Source of the DNA: a bacterium
Lineage (GTDB): Bacteria > CAIWAD01
Assembly (NCBI GenBank): GCA_030685015.1
Contig: JAUXWS010000003.1
Coordinates: forward strand, 1 to 28,255
Direction: 5' to 3'
DNA: 28,255 nucleotides
In this document: positions 6,345 through 28,011 of the stretch, piece after piece
How positions within the stretch are numbered: position 1 is the first letter of the stretch
Layout of the letters: each line of letters opens with the position of its first letter
The notes under the pieces: model-generated
Database searches by the model: none
Told to the model about the DNA's origin: nothing
What the model saw: the letters and a program-made list of their open reading frames with translations, nothing else
Position numbers and translations under genes: made by a program

Positions 6345-7364
6345 TCAGCCTAGCCGCTCGCGCACCTGTTCCGGGGCGTCGGCGGGCAGGTCGTGGTGGG
6401 TGACGAGACGGATGGTGGCCTCGTCCAGGGCCAGGGCGCGGATGCCGCGGACCTCCCAGCGTGCCAGCAACAAGGTGGTCAGGCCGGGTTCCAGCGTGCG
6501 CACCAGGACGATGTTGCTCTCCGGTTCCTGCACCTGGCAGGATTCGTCCAGCACCAGGCGCAGCGCGTGGGCCAGGCGGCGGGCCGCTTGGTGGTCCTCC
6601 GCCAGGCGGGGCAGGAAGACATCGAGGGCATGGAGACCAGCCGCGGCCAGCACCCCCGCCTGCCGCATGGCGCCACCCAGCATCTTGCGCAGGCGACGCG
6701 CCTCGCCGATGTGGGCGCGGTCCCCCACCAGCAGGGAGCCGGCCGGACAACCCAGGCCCTTGGACAGGCAGCAGGCCAGCGTGTCCACCACCGCGCCGTA
6801 GTCCGCCAGAGGGGTGCCCGAGGCGGCCGCGGCATTCCAGATGCGCGCTCCGTCACAGTGGAGGGCCAGGCCGCGCGCCCGGCAGAGGCCGGCCAGGGCG
6901 CTCAAGTGGGCCAGCGGGACGACCAGGCCGCCGGCCAGGTTGGCCGTGTTCTCCACCACGGCCAAGCGGGTGCGGGGGTGGTGGATGTCTTCCTCGTGGA
7001 TGGCCGCGGCCAGGGCCTCCAGGCCGAGCCAGCCCTCCGCGCAGTCCACGACCGAGGGCATGACACCCAGCAGGCCGGCGATGCCCCCCGTCTCATGGCC
7101 GAAGGTGTGGGTGCGCCGCTCGAGGATCGCCTCGTCCCCGCGCCGGCAGTGCAGGCCCACGGCGATCAGGTTGGCCATGGTGCCGCTCGGCACGAGGAGG
7201 GCCGCCTCGCGGCCGAAGAGGGCCGCCACGCGCTCCTCCAGCCGCGCCACGGTTGGATCCTCCCCGAACACATCGTCGCCCACCTCGGCGGCGGCCATGG
7301 CGCGGCGCATGCCTTCGTCGGGCCGGGTGACGGTGTCGGAACGGAAATCAAGCAGGGTGGCCAT
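6345..7364 (-). CDS. ltaE: Low-specificity L-threonine aldolase
   Basis: This 339-residue fold-type I PLP enzyme cleaves L-threonine or allo-threonine to glycine and acetaldehyde. Landmarks are FRSDTVTRP near the N-terminus, VGDDVFGEDPT, VPSGTMANL, the cofactor-stacking His in the RTHTF segment, HCDGARIWNA with the PLP aspartate, and CLSKGLGCPAGS with the PLP lysine K202. The family length is about 335-345. A longer frame continues into the mutM gene in another frame, but the ATG at 7364 has AGGAGC 6 nt upstream and begins the conserved domain. It is the last gene of a minus-strand operon bcp-mutM-ltaE, 17 bp after mutM. It acts in the cytoplasm. Confidence 0.93.
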   Translation of the reverse strand: MATLLDFRSDTVTRPDEGMRRAMAAAEVGDDVFGEDPTVARLEERVAALFGREAALLVPSGTMANLIAVGLHCRRGDEAILERRTHTFGHETGGIAGLLGVMPSVVDCAEGWLGLEALAAAIHEEDIHHPRTRLAVVENTANLAGGLVVPLAHLSALAGLCRARGLALHCDGARIWNAAAASGTPLADYGAVVDTLACCLSKGLGCPAGSLLVGDRAHIGEARRLRKMLGGAMRQAGVLAAAGLHALDVFLPRLAEDHQAARRLAHALRLVLDESCQVQEPESNIVLVRTLEPGLTTLLLARWEVRGIRALALDEATIRLVTHHDLPADAPEQVRERLG

Positions 7365-20772: not shown

Positions 20773-20793
20773 CGCACGGTCGGCCAGACTGCG

Positions 20794-20826
20794 ACAGGGG
20801 CTTGCCGCGGCAGGCCCCTGTTGTTT
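20794..20826 (+). terminator. Intrinsic terminator after hppA
   Basis: CAGGGGC and GCCCCTG pair around an inner GCC/GGC (20795-20820), followed by TTGTTT. It sits 22 bp after the hppA stop on the same strand and separates it from the symporter operon. An AT-rich island (20838-20868, with TAAAAT at 20855) follows and probably carries the next promoter; no good -35 match is visible. Confidence 0.8.
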
Positions 20827-20945
20827 ATGACTCGCTATTCACTTTTAATCCTGTTAAAATTTTCTTGAAGAACCATTCCTCAGCCGGTACATTGTCCGCC
20901 ATTCGCCTGTCGCAATCCTGAGACCCACCCATCGCGGAGGACCTG

Positions 20946-21230
20946 ATGCTGCACGAACCCGCCGCCTCGAGCGGCCCGGATCCCGGCTCCTCGTACAAGG
21001 CCCGTCTGGGCATCTGGATGTTCTTCTTCTACGCCGCCATCTATGCGGGCTTCGTCGCCATCAACCTGGCCAGCCCCGGCGCCATGGAGACGACGGTGCT
21101 GGCCGGCATGAACCTGGCCACCGTCTATGGCATCGGCTTGATTGTCTTCGCCCTTCTCCTGGCCCTGGTCTACGACCGGCTCTGCTCCGTGCGGGAGCGG
21201 CTGTTGGCCGACAAGGAGGGCGCCCGCTGA
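20946..21230 (+). CDS. DUF485 family membrane protein (YjcH-like)
   Basis: This 94-residue inner-membrane protein has two transmembrane segments (about 23-43 and 58-78). RLGIWMFFFYAAIYAGFVAIN and MNLATVYGIGLIVFALLLAL match the DUF485/YjcH pattern. In E. coli yjcH is cotranscribed with the acetate permease actP; the family is thought to be a small companion of such symporters. Here its TGA overlaps the symporter ATG by 1 bp, confirming the pairing. The start at 20946 follows GGAGG. Confidence 0.88.
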   Translation: MLHEPAASSGPDPGSSYKARLGIWMFFFYAAIYAGFVAINLASPGAMETTVLAGMNLATVYGIGLIVFALLLALVYDRLCSVRERLLADKEGAR

Positions 21231-23134
21231 TGGCCATCACCGTCTTCATCATCTTCGTCGCCGCCGTGCTGGGACTCTCCTTCTGGCTGGCGCGGCGCAC
21301 CACCTCGGCCAACGCCTATTACGCGGCGGGAGGCACCATCCACTGGTCGGTGAACGGCATCGCCTTCGCCGGCGACTACCTGAGCGCCGCCTCCTTCCTC
21401 GGCATTTGCGGCATGATCGCCACAGCCGGCTACGACGGATTCCTCTATTCCATCGGCTTCCTGGCCGGCTGGATCGTCGCCCTCTTCATCGTGGCCGAAC
21501 CCATGAAGCGGCTGGGCAAGTACACCTTCACCGACGCCCTGGACGCCAAGTTCAATTCGCGGGGCATCAAGCTGGCAGCGGCGATCAGCACCCTGGTGGT
21601 GTCCATCTTCTACCTGATTCCGCAGATGGTGGGCGCCGGCGTGCTGGTGGAGCCCCTGCTCGGCATCCCCCACGCCTGGGGCGTGATCATGGTGGGGGCG
21701 ATCGTCATCACCATCGTCGCCACCGCCGGCATGACCTCCACCACCTACGTGCAGTTCATCAAGGGCGCCATGCTCGTGATCTTCTCCACCGTGCTGGTGG
21801 TCTCCCTGCTGGTGCGCGGCCTCACCACCACTCCCGACCAGGGCGGCACCGTGCCCTTCGTGGAGCCGCGCGTGCTGATGGCGGGCGAACTGGACGGCAT
21901 CCTGCAACCGGCCGACAGCAGCTTCACGCTGCTGGAGCGCGCCGAGGCCAAAGGCAAGCGCTTCGCCCGCCTGGCCGGTCCCGGGGGCGAGAGCTGGTGG
22001 CTGGCGGGAAGCCCCGACGAACAGGGTCTCATCGCCCTGACCGAGGTGCAATGGGAGGCGAAGTCCGCCGAGGGGCACCTGGTCAACGGCCGGCCGGCCG
22101 GCGTGGACAACCCGTTGCGCCAGGTGGGCAACCTGACGCGCGTGGCCGGCAAGACCGGCGACGAGGCAGTGACGGGATCCCTGGGGCCCTTCGAGTTCCT
22201 CTCGCTCTTGTCCGACGAGCAGACCAGCGTGCGCCGCTGGATGAGCGCGGGCTTCACCTCGGCCAACGGCGCCGCCGTCAAGGTGATCTACCCCGTCGAG
22301 ACACCGGGCAACCGCGTCATGCGTCCCGGTCTCAAGTTCAAGGTCGAGGGGACGCCCCTGGAGCGCCTCGATTTCGTCAGCCTGATGCTGGCCCTCTTCT
22401 TCGGGACGGCCGCCCTGCCCCACATCCTCATCCGCTACTACACGGTGCCCAGCCCCACCTCGGCGCGCAAGTCGACCATCGTCGCCATCGCGGCCATCGG
22501 CGCCTTCTACGTGCTGACCCTCTACATGGGCCTGGGCGCCATGACCAGCGGCGTGATCAACCCACTGGACGACAACATGTCGGCGCCGCTGCTGGCGCGC
22601 TCCTTCGGGGAGCTGCTTTTCGCCGTCATCTCGGCCATCGCCTTCTCCACCGTGCTGGGGACGGTGAGCGGCCTCATCATCGCCGCCTCGGGAGCCGTCG
22701 CCCACGACCTGATGGACCGCTATGCCGGCCGCCGCATGACCGAGCACCAGAAAGTGCGCGCCGGCAAGATCTCCGCCTTCGCCGTGGGCCTGCTCGCCAT
22801 CATCCTGGGCATCCTCTTCAAGGGCATGAACGTCTCCTTCCTGGTGGGTCTTGCCTTCGCCGTGGCGGCCAGCGCCAACCTGCCGGCCATCCTCATGATG
22901 CTCTTCTGGAAGGGCACCACGGCCAAGGGGATCACGGCGGCGGTGACGGTGGGCATCCTCAGCTCCGTCGGCCTGATCATCTTCTCGCCCACCATGTGGG
23001 AGCGCTACGGGCTGGATCCCGCCCTGGCGCCCATCCCCCTCAACAACCCGGGCATCATCTCCATCCCCTTGAGTTTCCTGGTCCTTTATCTGGTGTCCCT
23101 GGCCACGGCCGGATCGAAAAGGACCACCATGTAG
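21230..23134 (+). CDS. Sodium/solute symporter, ActP-like, with enlarged periplasmic loop
   Basis: This 634-residue secondary transporter of the SSS family is closest by eye to acetate/short-chain carboxylate permeases (ActP, MctP and the related VC_2705 group). Landmarks are AGDYLSAASFLGI (TM2), PMKRLGKYTFTDAL, FGTAALPHILIRYYTVP, a conserved Ser/Thr-rich Na+-site helix (FSTVLGTVSGLIIAASGAVAHDL), and FLVGLAFAVAASANLPAIL. ActP has about 550 residues; here a loop at residues 198-380 or so, between TM6 and the FGTA helix, carries about 130 extra residues. It holds hydrophilic, beta-rich text (ADSSFTLLERAEAKGKRFAR) that may form a small external domain. Preceded by DUF485, followed after 18 bp by the sensor fusion gene. 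Substrate is inferred. Confidence 0.9.
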   Translation: MAITVFIIFVAAVLGLSFWLARRTTSANAYYAAGGTIHWSVNGIAFAGDYLSAASFLGICGMIATAGYDGFLYSIGFLAGWIVALFIVAEPMKRLGKYTFTDALDAKFNSRGIKLAAAISTLVVSIFYLIPQMVGAGVLVEPLLGIPHAWGVIMVGAIVITIVATAGMTSTTYVQFIKGAMLVIFSTVLVVSLLVRGLTTTPDQGGTVPFVEPRVLMAGELDGILQPADSSFTLLERAEAKGKRFARLAGPGGESWWLAGSPDEQGLIALTEVQWEAKSAEGHLVNGRPAGVDNPLRQVGNLTRVAGKTGDEAVTGSLGPFEFLSLLSDEQTSVRRWMSAGFTSANGAAVKVIYPVETPGNRVMRPGLKFKVEGTPLERLDFVSLMLALFFGTAALPHILIRYYTVPSPTSARKSTIVAIAAIGAFYVLTLYMGLGAMTSGVINPLDDNMSAPLLARSFGELLFAVISAIAFSTVLGTVSGLIIAASGAVAHDLMDRYAGRRMTEHQKVRAGKISAFAVGLLAIILGILFKGMNVSFLVGLAFAVAASANLPAILMMLFWKGTTAKGITAAVTVGILSSVGLIIFSPTMWERYGLDPALAPIPLNNPGIISIPLSFLVLYLVSLATAGSKRTTM

Positions 23135-23152: not shown

Positions 23153-26100
23153 GTGAGCCAGCTGAGCGCCGTCCGCGTCGACCTGCACGTCCACAGCTCC
23201 TGCAGCGACGGGAGCCTCAGCCCCGAGCAGCTGGCCGACGAGCTGGCGGCGGCGGGTGCGGGCTTTGCCGCCCTGGCCGACCACAACACGGTGGAGGGTC
23301 TGGAGCGCTTCCGCGAAGCCCTGGAGCGCCGTGGCGTGCGGGTGATCAGCGGCCTGGAGCTGGACGTCCAGGCTGCCTGCGGTCCGCTTCACCTCCTGGC
23401 TTACGGCTTCGACGAGCATGCGCCGCGCCTGCGCCGGGCGTTGCGCGCCGTGCGACATCCCCACTGGGATCGCCTCCTGCGCGCCTGGTGGCCCCCCTCG
23501 CTTCGCCGGGCCCACGCCCCGCAGGCCCTGGCCCTGGGTCCGGGGCGGGGGGCGCTGGCGGCGGACGAGGCGATCCGCCTCATCCACGAGGCGGGGGGAC
23601 TCGTCTTCCTGGCCCATCCCCTTGCCGCCATGGCGGGACCGGACGAGCTGGAGCGGTGCCTGGACGAGCTGCAGGGGCTGGGGCTGGACGGGATCGAGGC
23701 GCACTACAAACCCTACGACAGCGCCACCCGCCTACACCTGGAGGAGGTGGCCCGGCGGCGCGGCCTGCTGGCCTCGGGCGGCAGCGACTACCATGGACCG
23801 GGTGTGGAGCTGGGCGCCGCCACGCCCGGCATGGACCTGTCCGAGGATTCCTGGCGCCGTCTGTCGCGGGCGCTGGGCTGGACGGGCGAGGGCTTCCTCC
23901 TCTCCCGGGCGGCGGCAGGCGCGCCGGCACGCCCGGGCTGGCGCCGGGGCTTCCTGCTCAACATCGGCCTGCCGGCCGCCCTCACCGGCCTGCTCTTCGT
24001 GCTGGCCATCTTCCGTTTCCTGCTTCCCGCGATGGAGGACCAGCTCCTCGAGCGCAAGAAGGAGATGATCCGCGAACTCACCCGCGCCGCCGTCAGCATC
24101 CTTCAGGAGTACGAGGACGAGGCCCGGGCCGGACGGCTGGAACCGGCGGCCGCCCGCGCCGAGGCGGCGGAGCGCCTGCGCCGCCTGCGCTACGGCGCCG
24201 AGGGCAAGGACTACTTTTGGGTGACGGACATGACGCCGCGCATGGTCATGCATCCCTGGCGCCCCGACCTGGAGGGCCGCGACCTGCGCGAGTTCCAGGA
24301 TCCCACCGGGCGGCGCGTCTTCGTCGCCTTCGTGGATGCGGTCCGACGGCGGGACTCCGGCTATGTGGACTACTACTGGCAGTGGAAGGACGACGCCGGG
24401 CAGATCGCCCCCAAGCTTTCCCACGTGCAGGCCTTCCGACCCTGGGGCTGGGTGATCGGCACAGGCATCTACAGCGAGGACGTGCAGGCGGAGATCGTCC
24501 GGGTCCGCGGCCGCCTCGTCTACGCCTCCCTGCTCATCCTGGGCGTGGCCGGCCTGCTCCTGGCCACCATCATGCGGCAGAGCCTGGCCCTCGAGCGCCG
24601 GCGGGCACGGGCGGAGCAGGAGCTGCGCGAAACCAGCGGCAAGTACCGGGCCCTGGTCGAGGCGTCGACGGAGGGGACCCTCATGGTGCTGGACGGCCGC
24701 TGCGCCTACGCCAACGGCATCATGGAGCGCATGCTGGGCGAGGAGAGGGGCGGCCTGGCGGGACGCGGCATCCTGGACCTGCTCGCCACCGACAGCCCCG
24801 GTGATCGGCGTGGCCGCGAGACGATGGAATGCCTGTTGCGCGGCGAGGCGGTGCCGGGCAGCTTCGAAGCCAGGATGCGGCGCGCCGCGGGCGGGCACGC
24901 CGAGCTGCTCCTCTCGGCCACGTCCATTGCCGCGGACGGGCGCGAGGGCCACATCCTGGTGGCGCGCGACATCAGCCGCTCCAAGCAACTGGCCGCCACC
25001 ATCCAGCGCAGCCGCGTCCACTACCGCAAGCTGACGCGCTCCATCCACATGGGCGTCTTCCGCAGCGCCTGGGGCGACGGCGCCCTCCTGATCGAGGCCA
25101 ATCCGGCCATGCGTGTCCTGCTTGGCATGCCGGCGGAGGGCGAGCCGGCGGGCGTCGACTGGTTGGAGCGCGTCGTCGACGCCGAGCAGCGCCGTTCGCT
25201 GAAGGAGCGGCTGCAGCGGGAGGAGAGCGCCGAGCAGCCGCGCCTGGCCCTGCGCCGCCTGGATGGGGGACTGGTGGAGGTCCGCCTCTTCGCCGTGCTG
25301 GTGCGCGAGGACGAGCACGTGCTGTGCGACGGCGTCCTGGAGGACATCACGGCGCGGGCCCGCGGCGAAGCGGAGCGCGAGGAGCTGATCGCCCAGCTGC
25401 AGACCTCGCTCTTCTTCCTGCAGGAGCCGGTCGCCCCCGCCGTGCGGCCGGTCCCCGTGCTCGAGGCGGAGCGGCCCATCAGCGAGGCGGCGGTCCGCAT
25501 GGGCGGCTCGGAGGCCAGCGCGCTGGTGGTGGTGGGGGCCGGCGGCGAGCCGCTCGGTCTGGTGACCGACCATGATTTCCGCGCCCGCGTCACGGCGGTG
25601 GGCCTGGATCCGGCCCGGCCCCTGCGCGTGATCATGAGCGCGCCCCTGGCCTCCGTCTCGGTGCATGCCCTGGTCCACGAGGCGATCCTCGTCATGCAGG
25701 AGCGGGGCATCGGCCACCTGGCCGTGCTGGACGAGGCGGGCCGCCTGGTGGGCGTGCTGCGCGACCGCCACCTCATCCACTTCCGCCACTACAGCACGGT
25801 CATCCTCACCCAGTCCATCCGCCGCGCCGAAAGCGCCGCCGAGATCGGCCGGGCGCGCGAGCGCCTGCCGCGCCTGGTCCACGCCCTGCTCGCCTCCGGC
25901 GCCCGCGTGCGGGCCGTCAACCGCCTCATCACCGGCGTGGCGGACGCCGCCGCCGAACGCCTGCTCGCCCTGGCCACGGCGGAGCTGGGTCCGCCGCCGG
26001 GCGCTTTCGCCCTGCTCGCCATGGGCAGCCAGGGCCGCCTGGAGCAGACCCTGGTCACCGACCAGGACAACGCCATCGTCTACGAGGAGCCGCCCCCCGG

Positions 26101-26833
26101 CCGTGAGGCGGAGTGGCAGGCTTGGTTCCTGGAGCTGGGGCGGCTCGTCACTGTCGGTCTGGCCGAGGCCGGCTACCGCGAATGCGCGGGCGGCGTGATG
26201 GCCCGCCACCCCAAATGGACCCTGTCGCTCGAGGCCTGGACGGCGCAGTTCCGGCACTGGATCCGCACGGCCGATCCGCAGCAGCTGCTGGATCTCAACA
26301 TCGCCTTCGATTTCCGCTGCGTGGGCGGCGAGCCGGCCCTGGCCCGGGAGCTGCGGCGCCGCGTCTTCAGCGAGATCCGGATCCATCCGCCCTTCCTGCT
26401 CCACCTGGCCCAGAACGCGCTGCTCGGCCGGCCGCCGCTCAGCCTGGGCGGCCGCATTGTGACCCAGGCCGCCGGCGACGGCCACAAGGCGCTCGACCTG
26501 AAGGAGGCTCTCCTTCCCGTCATCAACCACGGGCGGCTCTACGCCCTGCGCCATCAGGTCGAGGACACCCACACCCTGGACCGCCTGGGACGTCTGCACG
26601 AGCTGGGCCGCCTCAGCCAGGAGACCTGGGAGGAGCTGCTCCCCGACTACGAGGCGGCCATGCGCATGCGCCTCGAGCACCAGGCCCGCGCCGTGCTGGA
26701 AGGCCGCGAGGCCGACAACCTGCTTTCGCCCAGCGGCTGGACCGCCCTGGACGAGGCCATGCTCAAGCGGCTCTTCACCGTGGTGCAGGATCTGCGGCGC
26801 AAGATCAGCTACGATTTCCAGGGGATGGCGTGA
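23153..26833 (+). CDS. PHP-Cache-PAS-PAS-CBS-DUF294 nucleotidyltransferase membrane sensor
   Basis: One uninterrupted 1226-residue frame holds these domains in order. (1) PHP phosphoesterase, 8-225 or so: DLHVHSSCSDGS with H12, H14, D19; ADHN at 42-45; E69; AHP with H155; SDYH at 211-214. (2) TM1, 266-290. (3) Periplasmic sCache-type domain, 291-452: KDYFWVTDMTPRMVMHPW and PWGWVIGTGIYSEDV. (4) TM2, 453-475. (5) PAS, about 490-610, and a second PAS, 622-737. (6) A CBS pair, 765-880. (7) DUF294 nucleotidyltransferase, 900-1040, with MGSQGRLEQTLVTDQDNAIV (GS and DxD intact). (8) DUF294_C to the end. The GTG start has GGAG upstream. Both catalytic domains would be cytoplasmic and the Cache domain outside. 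It stands 18 bp after the symporter gene and overlaps mtgA by 4 bp. Confidence 0.9.
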   Translation: MSQLSAVRVDLHVHSSCSDGSLSPEQLADELAAAGAGFAALADHNTVEGLERFREALERRGVRVISGLELDVQAACGPLHLLAYGFDEHAPRLRRALRAVRHPHWDRLLRAWWPPSLRRAHAPQALALGPGRGALAADEAIRLIHEAGGLVFLAHPLAAMAGPDELERCLDELQGLGLDGIEAHYKPYDSATRLHLEEVARRRGLLASGGSDYHGPGVELGAATPGMDLSEDSWRRLSRALGWTGEGFLLSRAAAGAPARPGWRRGFLLNIGLPAALTGLLFVLAIFRFLLPAMEDQLLERKKEMIRELTRAAVSILQEYEDEARAGRLEPAAARAEAAERLRRLRYGAEGKDYFWVTDMTPRMVMHPWRPDLEGRDLREFQDPTGRRVFVAFVDAVRRRDSGYVDYYWQWKDDAGQIAPKLSHVQAFRPWGWVIGTGIYSEDVQAEIVRVRGRLVYASLLILGVAGLLLATIMRQSLALERRRARAEQELRETSGKYRALVEASTEGTLMVLDGRCAYANGIMERMLGEERGGLAGRGILDLLATDSPGDRRGRETMECLLRGEAVPGSFEARMRRAAGGHAELLLSATSIAADGREGHILVARDISRSKQLAATIQRSRVHYRKLTRSIHMGVFRSAWGDGALLIEANPAMRVLLGMPAEGEPAGVDWLERVVDAEQRRSLKERLQREESAEQPRLALRRLDGGLVEVRLFAVLVREDEHVLCDGVLEDITARARGEAEREELIAQLQTSLFFLQEPVAPAVRPVPVLEAERPISEAAVRMGGSEASALVVVGAGGEPLGLVTDHDFRARVTAVGLDPARPLRVIMSAPLASVSVHALVHEAILVMQERGIGHLAVLDEAGRLVGVLRDRHLIHFRHYSTVILTQSIRRAESAAEIGRARERLPRLVHALLASGARVRAVNRLITGVADAAAERLLALATAELGPPPGAFALLAMGSQGRLEQTLVTDQDNAIVYEEPPPGREAEWQAWFLELGRLVTVGLAEAGYRECAGGVMARHPKWTLSLEAWTAQFRHWIRTADPQQLLDLNIAFDFRCVGGEPALARELRRRVFSEIRIHPPFLLHLAQNALLGRPPLSLGGRIVTQAAGDGHKALDLKEALLPVINHGRLYALRHQVEDTHTLDRLGRLHELGRLSQETWEELLPDYEAAMRMRLEHQARAVLEGREADNLLSPSGWTALDEAMLKRLFTVVQDLRRKISYDFQGMA

Positions 26834-27558
26834 AGGCGCCCGGGCGGGCGGGGCGCTCCCGCCTGCGCCGGCTGGCCGGAGCGCTTCTGCGCCTGGCGGC
26901 GGCCGGCCTGGCGCTCACCCTGCTCGTCATCCTTGCCTTGCGCTGGGTGCCGCCCCCCACCAGCGCCATGATGCTGCAGCGTCGGGTGGCCGGGTTCTTC
27001 CAAGAGGGGGCGCCGCCTGTATGTTACGAATGGCGGCCGCTGGAGCGCATCTCCCCCCACGCCGCGCTGGCGGTGGTGGCGGCGGAGGACCAGCTCTTCC
27101 TCGAACACGGCGGTTTCGACCTGGAGGCGATCGGCAAGGCGCTGGACCACAACCGCCGCGGCCGCGGGGTGAGGGGCGCCAGCACCATCACCCAGCAGGT
27201 GGCGAAGAACCTCTTCCTCTGGCCGCGCCGCAGCTGGCTGCGCAAAGGCCTCGAGGCGGGCCTGACCGTGCTGCTGGAGGCGCTCTGGCCCAAGCGCCGC
27301 ATCCTCGAGGTCTACCTCAACATCGCCCAGTTCGGGGACGGCGTCTACGGGGTGCCCGCCGCCGCCCGCCACCTGCTGCACACCCGGGCGGACCGCCTCA
27401 CCCCCGAACAGGCGGCGCGGCTGGCCGCCGTCCTGCCCAATCCCCGCCAGTTCAAGGCCGATCGGCCCTCGCCCTACCTGCGGCGCCGGACGGATTGGAT
27501 CCAAGGCCAGATGAGGCAACTGGGCGGTCCGGCCTGGTTGCGGCAACTGGATCCTTGA
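26830..27558 (+). CDS. mtgA: Monofunctional peptidoglycan glycosyltransferase
   Basis: This 242-residue GT51 enzyme polymerises lipid II into glycan strands; E. coli MtgA is also 242 residues. One N-terminal membrane anchor (about 17-40) is followed by the GT51 motifs: AAEDQLFLEHGGFD with the catalytic E86, GASTITQQVAKNLFL, SWLRKGLEA with the second conserved Glu (E142), and RRILEVYLNIAQFGDGVYG. The last motif has Gln where proteobacterial MtgA has Glu (NIAEWG), which is not the catalytic position. The GTG start overlaps the sensor gene stop as GTGA, so it is translationally coupled to it. Translation from an internal Met is unlikely because the anchor would be lost. Confidence 0.94.
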   Translation: MKAPGRAGRSRLRRLAGALLRLAAAGLALTLLVILALRWVPPPTSAMMLQRRVAGFFQEGAPPVCYEWRPLERISPHAALAVVAAEDQLFLEHGGFDLEAIGKALDHNRRGRGVRGASTITQQVAKNLFLWPRRSWLRKGLEAGLTVLLEALWPKRRILEVYLNIAQFGDGVYGVPAAARHLLHTRADRLTPEQAARLAAVLPNPRQFKADRPSPYLRRRTDWIQGQMRQLGGPAWLRQLDP

Positions 27559-28011
27559 GGGTCAGGTCATCGCTTAGGGGATCGAAATCGCTTTGGGGAT
27601 CGATATCGATATCGATATCGATATCGAAATGGAGCCAGCTCGCAGGGACTTGTGCCCTAGGCGCCGCGCAACTCGACCAGGCGGTCCACCAGCTGGGCGA
27701 AGCCTCCGCCGCCCGGAGCCCCGGTGAGATCCGACATCTCTCGCCATCGGGATCGGGATCGCTATCGGGATCGGGATCGGAGTCGGAGTCGATAGCGACA
27801 GCGATAGCGATTCTGAGCCGCCCCGGTGAGATCCGACATCACTCGCATCTCTTTCGATATCGGGATTGGGATCGGGATCGCTATCGGGATCGGGATCGGG
27901 TTCGGGATCGGGATCGGCATCGGGATCGGCTTCGATAGCGATAGCGAATGTGATATCGGGATCGATAGCGATAGCGATAGCGAATCTAAGCCACTTCGCG
28001 GAAAACCTGCC
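27559..28011. repeat. Hexamer tandem-repeat region with nested duplications
   Basis: This is 450 bp without a gene, between mtgA and the convergent HAD phosphatase gene. It holds a GATATC/ATCGAT array (about 27598-27627) and longer imperfect arrays of 6-bp units of the types GGGATC and GATAGC (about 27745-27810 and 27856-27986). A 30-bp block occurs identically at 27751-27780 and 27870-27899. CCCCGGTGAGATCCGACATC occurs at 27719-27738 and 27821-27840. The frames crossing it on the minus strand (Ser-Leu, Pro-Ile and Arg-Tyr runs) are by-products of the repeats. No terminator is seen. Confidence 0.85.
27653..27730 (-). pseudogene. Duplicated 3' end of the adjacent HAD phosphatase gene
   Basis: These 78 bp match 28008-28085 at 76 positions and contain the last 23 codons and the stop of the HAD phosphatase gene (one codon changed, Gln to Glu). 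It has no start or upstream part, so it is a gene-end fragment lying 355 bp downstream of the real end, separated from it by the hexamer repeats. The similarity stops abruptly at GGTGAGAT. Confidence 0.85.

Follow-up and report, generated by a model that had tools for sequence, protein, structure and literature searches.

Reversible nucleotidylation of the GlnE and GlnD sort is a known kind of regulation. GlnE carries its writer and its remover in one chain and has glutamine synthetase as its target, while GlnD joins a nucleotidyltransferase to a metal hydrolase and to small-molecule sensing domains. The effectors DrrA/SidM and SidD are a further case, in which the eraser has an unrelated metal-dependent fold and is encoded near the writer (PMC12409994). 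An operon of a DUF294 gene with dnaQ was already noted in a footnote in 2012 (PMC3412718). Here we describe a gene at positions 23153-26833 of contig JAUXWS010000003.1 (assembly GCA_030685015.1, lineage CAIWAD01), analysed over a stretch of 28,255 nucleotides that is referred to below as the window. Its product joins an N-terminal PHP phosphoesterase to a C-terminal DUF294 nucleotidyltransferase in a single chain. We propose that it is a membrane protein with two heads that regulates how carboxylates are taken up or used: the nucleotidyltransferase would write a mark and the PHP domain would erase the same bond; we see this proposal as evenly balanced between right and wrong.

The window protein resembles GlnE in that DUF294 and DUF294_C together share the GlnE fold over about 310 residues, with the GS, DxD and D-x-R motifs, and in that writer and proposed remover occupy one chain. 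It differs in having a single nucleotidyltransferase, with a PHP hydrolase as the proposed remover where GlnE has a second, phosphorolytic nucleotidyltransferase, and in adding a membrane sensor, PAS and CBS domains. The likeness to GlnD lies in the joining of a nucleotidyltransferase to a metal hydrolase, along with sensing domains; however, the hydrolase is an N-terminal PHP domain, the input is by Cache, PAS and CBS domains, and no HD or ACT domain was matched by Pfam at E 0.01. With DrrA/SidM (structure 6yx5) the writer fold is common, but DrrA and SidD are secreted effectors that act on a host GTPase, not parts of a membrane-bound metabolic sensor, and the eraser fold differs. The pairs formed by cNMP-CBS-DUF294 proteins (cNMP, cyclic nucleotide) and DnaQ have in common with the window protein a nucleotidyltransferase, a CBS pair, a phosphoesterase partner and an acetate-type symporter as neighbour, whereas they are soluble, with a CRP-like sensor and a DnaQ partner in place of Cache/PAS and PHP. 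We take PA3232-PA3235 of P. aeruginosa, presumably a DnaQ-like nuclease, a DUF294 protein and ActP, to be an example. This cluster is about 16-fold up on propionate, and deletion of actP gives no growth defect on propionate (PMC9765439), which connects the family with short carboxylates but points to no mechanism. Finally, RNase AM (YciV) and the nucleoside 3',5'-bisphosphate phosphatase CV1693 are the closest structures to the PHP domain and have the same nine metal ligands, but the window PHP has lost the cap domain and Arg201, and is fused to a sensor and a nucleotidyltransferase.

The open reading frame has 1226 codons, a GTG start and no internal stops. The initial annotation, made from the bare sequence, had described such a frame with intact PHP metal residues, two membrane segments around an sCache-like sensor, and a nucleotidyltransferase with GS and DxD. 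All of this holds: PHP, sCache_2, PAS, CBS, DUF294 and DUF294_C were each found by Pfam above the curated cut-off, and the membrane segments and catalytic residues are in place. The features are as follows.

23153..26833, + strand: whole gene, PHP-TM-sCache_2-TM-PAS-PAS-CBS2-DUF294-DUF294_C, where TM is a transmembrane segment (open reading frame and Pfam; full-length orthologues)
23174..23872, + strand: PHP phosphoesterase domain, residues 8-240, nine metal ligands retained (Pfam, NCBIfam, structure comparison)
23948..24037, + strand: first membrane segment, residues 266-295 (hydrophobic stretch, preceded by an Arg-rich side)
24050..24499, + strand: sCache_2 periplasmic sensor, residues 300-449, resembling the MctS and CtpM sensors (Pfam 1.7e-37)
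24503..24592, + strand: second membrane segment, residues 451-480 (hydrophobic stretch)
24641..24973, + strand: PAS domain 1, residues 497-607 (Pfam)
25079..25354, + strand: PAS domain 2 (PAS_9), residues 643-734, absent from the Spirochaetota homologue L027 (Pfam)
25460..25783, + strand: CBS pair, about residues 770-877 (Pfam, two CBS matches)
25862..26281, + strand: DUF294 nucleotidyltransferase, residues 904-1043, with G958-S959 and D970-Q-D972 (Pfam 9.5e-45)
26309..26311, + strand: D1053, probable third catalytic carboxylate, in an FDFR motif (D in 119/120 homologues)
26390..26818, + strand: DUF294_C helical substrate-binding domain, residues 1080-1222, of the HEPN/KNTase_C clan (Pfam 8.4e-33)

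The Pfam PHP match covers only residues 10-80 (7.7e-11), and the second half of the fold was caught in two stretches by NCBIfam NF041577 (2.4e-32). Basic residues lie at the inner side of both membrane stretches, from which the PHP and nucleotidyltransferase heads are predicted to be cytoplasmic; the Cache domain is predicted to be periplasmic.

The DUF294 head was compared with a sample of 120 loci, made up of matches to P0001 or PF10335 in Acidobacteriota, Spirochaetota, Bacteroidota and Pseudomonadota together with loci from a first scan. The GS motif is present in 118 of the 120 domains. Both Asp positions of DxD are conserved in 115 domains apiece and the third acidic position in 119; the window protein has all of these residues, and scores above cut-off with both PF03445 and PF10335. 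An AlphaFold2 model of residues 889-1226 has a pLDDT (predicted local distance difference test) of 92; this and the PHP model were built on shallow alignments, one of 8 sequences and the other of 4. A Foldseek search with the DUF294 model gave only four matches at <0.001, and these were both halves of E. coli GlnE and the AMPylase DrrA. Alignment by VIA-align 2 gave Z scores of 27.0 over 312 residues with the N-terminal half of GlnE (1v4a), 25.2 with the C-terminal half (3k7d) and 24.4 with DrrA (6yx5). The top full-length small-molecule nucleotidyltransferase, an ANT(4'')/kanamycin nucleotidyltransferase entry, reached only 9.3. This kinship argues for a protein acceptor, without proving it, and on the strength of the model the DUF294 domain probably attaches a nucleotide to proteins. 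Aravind and colleagues had grouped DUF294_C with the C-terminal domains of GlnD and GlnE (PMC3710099).

A phosphoesterase is fused to DUF294 or encoded within 1 kb of it at 96 of the 120 loci, which are not mutually independent and were scored with partner profiles seeded from linked examples. The partners belong to four mutually unrelated folds, all of them metal-dependent phosphoesterases and each confirmed on examples by Pfam: DnaQ-like exonuclease (76), PHP (9), calcineurin-like (6) and the AP_endonuc_2 TIM barrel (5). Where DnaQ genes are adjacent and co-directional, 70/73 lie downstream of DUF294, most of them ≤60 bases away. The calcineurin-like genes are also co-directional, and either overlap or lie within 34 bases. 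Some 'PHP' marks (E 1e-5 to 1e-12) on DUF294 proteins that lack PHP were discarded as profile drift.

The PHP domain of the window protein has all nine metal ligands (H12, H14, D19, H44, E69, H80, H155, D212 and H214), as does every intact DUF294-linked PHP. Its model has a pLDDT of 79 and is good outside the shortened cap region; the closest solved structures are CV1693 (2yb1) and RNase AM (7ug9, 9etk), with Z of about 25-26. DUF294-linked PHPs have 48-75 residues separating H80 from H155, compared to 114 in all complete stand-alone PHPs of the same and related genomes; judged by this spacing, the insertion or cap domain of RNase AM-like PHPs is lost. The HPGR/HPGK motif has become HPLx, which replaces Arg201 of RNase AM. 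In RNase AM the cap residues Arg107, Arg110, Arg141 and Phe161 enclose the RNA 5' phosphate and stack against the adenine, and Arg201 contacts sulfate and helps to hold the RNA 5' end (PMC9410882). A PHP that keeps its metals and lacks the RNA clamp is as would be expected after a change of substrate to a large nucleotide carried on a protein. The DUF294-linked PHPs form one clade against the stand-alone PHPs (support 96/96). The window PHP falls well short of the equivalog cut-offs, scoring 112 bits with NF041577 (cut-off 400) and 82 bits with NF047791 (cut-off 375). An ordinary RNase AM identity was rejected on the cap loss and these scores, and the PolX, histidinol-phosphate and PolIII types were rejected because their matches were weaker.

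Each of the DnaQ, PHP and AP_endonuc_2 folds has known members that cut R-O-P(O)-O-5'-nucleoside bonds to R-OH and 5'-NMP (NMP, nucleoside monophosphate). This is the bond type of AMPylated tyrosine. A nuclease, snake-venom phosphodiesterase, strips adenosine monophosphate (AMP) from glutamine synthetase, and the known deAMPylases have unrelated folds, SidD being encoded beside its AMPylase (PMC12409994). In the mechanism that we propose, the periplasmic sCache_2 domain would sense a short carboxylate outside the cell, the PAS and CBS domains would contribute internal signals (redox, ligand or adenine-nucleotide state), and these inputs would set the balance between the two heads. The GlnE-like DUF294 and DUF294_C domains would transfer a nucleotide, most likely AMP, to a side-chain hydroxyl of a partner protein; the cap-less PHP would cut the same phosphodiester and release NMP. 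The likeliest candidates for this partner are the symporter encoded alongside (or the symporter's small subunit) and an enzyme that forms acyl-CoA. The initial annotation had suggested a GlnD-like writer and eraser with PHP in the HD role. That suggestion has gained from the GlnE/DrrA fold, the 96/120 pairing, the fusions and the cap loss, and is plausible for the window protein, though the activity itself we infer. More widely, and tentatively, DUF294 proteins at large may be reversible protein-nucleotidylation switches for carboxylate metabolism, with a constant writer of GlnE fold and an eraser that has repeatedly been replaced (DnaQ, PHP, AP_endonuc_2, calcineurin-like); the window protein would then hold sensor, writer and eraser in one chain.

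The product of DUF294 might instead be a nucleic acid or small molecule, such as nucleotides added to RNA ends or a nucleotide second messenger, which the phosphoesterases trim or degrade. Nucleases or nucleotide phosphodiesterases occur in each of the four partner folds, the PHP domain has RNase AM and a pAp phosphatase as its nearest matches, short DUF294 proteins bear CRP-like cNMP-binding domains, and the HEPN/KNTase_C clan is that of DUF294_C. We consider this explanation unlikely, although a serious one, as the DUF294 fold is far nearer to protein AMPylators than to small-molecule nucleotidyltransferases, and the PHP domain lacks the cap that binds RNA 5' ends.

The hydrolase linkage exceeds chance. 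The expectation that one of two neighbours is calcineurin-like is about 0.6% of loci, and for AP_endonuc_2 about 0.5%; with three tree-forced origins among 17 loci, P is near 1e-4 for either fold. The Cache-type proteins all fall into a single clade of the DUF294 tree (n=26; 97, starred), in which none has a linked DnaQ; a DnaQ partner was sought at these loci and none was adjacent. The PHP set falls within a 12-member sub-clade (96, starred), with two calcineurin-like cases and one AP_endonuc_2 case; among the PHP members, fusion and adjacency alternate. PHP was perhaps gained a single time, and AP_endonuc_2 and calcineurin-like partners appear, from the tree, to have been gained at least three times each. 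This pattern suggests that the writer was kept while the partner was exchanged. Fusion to the N-terminus of DUF294 is seen for three folds: PHP, AP_endonuc_2 and RNase_T, the last two in one genome each. In Spirochaetota G459 (L104:6938-10231, - strand) an AP_endonuc_2 barrel (4.4e-21) stands ahead of Cache-PAS-DUF294, in the place of PHP in the window, and in Acidobacteriota G251 (L131:118-2259, + strand) a single chain of RNase_T (5.8e-30)-CBS-DUF294-DUF294_C is the DnaQ counterpart of the PHP fusion. These observations bear on whether the heads act on different bonds, with PHP a separate output (on a metabolite or regulatory phosphoester) joined through a common carboxylate signal. PHP enzymes have many substrates, a wide variety of partner folds is what loosely coupled outputs would give, and 24/120 DUF294 genes have no linked phosphoesterase. 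Nevertheless, unrelated folds that share only phosphoester hydrolysis recur in the same place, three of them fused N-terminally, and we regard separate outputs as fairly improbable.

Other arrangements were also seen. In Spirochaetota G335 (L110:5024-12708) two Cache-type DUF294 genes lie either side of a GPR1/FUN34/YaaH acetate permease. The second of these DUF294 genes has beside it a metal phosphatase of the ARMT1-like (DUF89) type (2.3e-57), which may be a fifth partner fold. Two Cache-type DUF294 proteins (L111:7230-9830 and L113:1757-4177) have in place of the phosphoesterase an N-terminal domain that is weakly DUF6915-like (2.1e-4, below cut-off). The DnaQ partners of Pseudomonadota often carry an N-terminal membrane part in the same chain, in proteins of 470-709 residues (L201:1936-4047, L186:2604-4013); that of L201 has PAS and a weak HisKA match.

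Full-length, colinear homologues with 61-63% identity occur in two other genomes (sister species) of the genus, so that the fusion is present in 3/3 genus genomes, out of five sampled for the phylum. The complete domain order is found in at least three phyla. It occurs in Acidobacteriota L024 at 41% identity, and L102 of the same phylum has the same order, with the frame broken by a run of N after the first PAS domain. In Spirochaetota the fusion is present in L027, minus the second PAS, and in L103. It is uncommon, at 2/297 Acidobacteriota and 2/198 Spirochaetota genomes searched. The initial annotation expected CBS-DUF294 proteins usually to lack PHP, Cache and PAS; this is right for PHP, but the Cache-PAS-CBS-DUF294 order is that of a whole clade, 26 of the 120. 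In a genome labelled Gemmatimonadetes (L029), PHP and Cache-PAS-CBS-DUF294 are two genes with an ATGA overlap at 6720-6723. At L105:8129-8809 the HxH part of a PHP gene is missing from the open frame and the Cache portion of the following gene contains a TAA, which is either sequencing error or a decaying copy. One or both heads might be regulatory relics in a ligand-responsive scaffold or symporter inhibitor, as the fast divergence of PHP and the damaged frame of this distant homologue would allow, but retention of 9/9 metal ligands and of GS, DxD and D across phyla makes this very improbable. That a chimeric assembly or frameshift joined two genes, as a draft genome in 105 contigs and the separate genes of L029 might suggest, is refuted by the unbroken frame in five other genomes assembled independently (G001, G002, G006, G008 and G323).

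Several points weigh against a PHP eraser and a protein-nucleotidylation switch. Within the genus, PHP is the least conserved domain, with 54-56% identity compared to 58-71% for the others. GlnE itself removes AMP by its second nucleotidyltransferase and not by a hydrolase. The separate AP_endonuc_2 genes are convergent with DUF294 and are not co-transcribed with it, and the AP_endonuc_2 Pfam family also holds sugar isomerases. Lastly, the 24 genes with no nearby phosphoesterase, which include 6/26 in the Cache clade, imply that an eraser is not always linked.

The domain order is rare and is not described in the papers searched. Nor do these papers describe partners of PHP, AP_endonuc_2 or calcineurin-like type, the fusions or any DUF294 activity, which is weak evidence, subscription papers and preprints being outside the scope of the search. 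No papers that combine the domain names were found, and most literature matches to 'DUF294' probably concern DUF2946, judging from their titles. DUF294_C is carried by 77/200 Pseudomonadota and 75/247 Bacteroidota genomes searched, and the literature searched is nearly silent on it. If the pairing means writer and eraser, a large uncharacterised family acquires an assayable hypothesis, with a GlnE-like writer, a named eraser and a named transporter, and the single-chain form offers one protein in which both halves are testable. The genomic pattern hints at a widespread on/off switch for the uptake of acetate-like food. A deAMPylase of PHP, DnaQ, TIM-barrel or calcineurin-like fold would, if true, add to the three folds listed in a 2025 review (PMC12409994).

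Two genes precede the PHP-DUF294 gene.

20946..21230, + strand: DUF485/DUF4212-type small subunit, its stop overlapping the symporter start (TGATG, 21228-21232)
21230..23134, + strand: sodium:solute symporter, MctC/ActP-like, 18 bases upstream of the PHP-DUF294 gene

Such a symporter and small-subunit pair adjoins almost every Cache-type homologue retrieved, and a symporter lies within 2.3 kb at nearly all Cache-type DUF294 loci that have enough sequence. Together with the MctS/CtpM-like sCache_2 domain, this neighbour is compatible with a carboxylate signal. A sigma-70 promoter scan gave no match. A hairpin rich in G and C, followed by T-rich DNA, was seen by eye at 20790-20830, after an H+-pyrophosphatase gene, and likely divides that gene from the DUF485-symporter-PHP/DUF294 operon. 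Downstream, 26830-27558 encodes a monofunctional peptidoglycan transglycosylase (Transgly, 4e-47). Its GTG start and the PHP-DUF294 stop overlap (GTGA), so that the two genes may be translationally coupled. Past the operon, at 27569-27983, are runs of a degenerate hexanucleotide repeat of ATCGGG/ATCGAT type, open in several frames.

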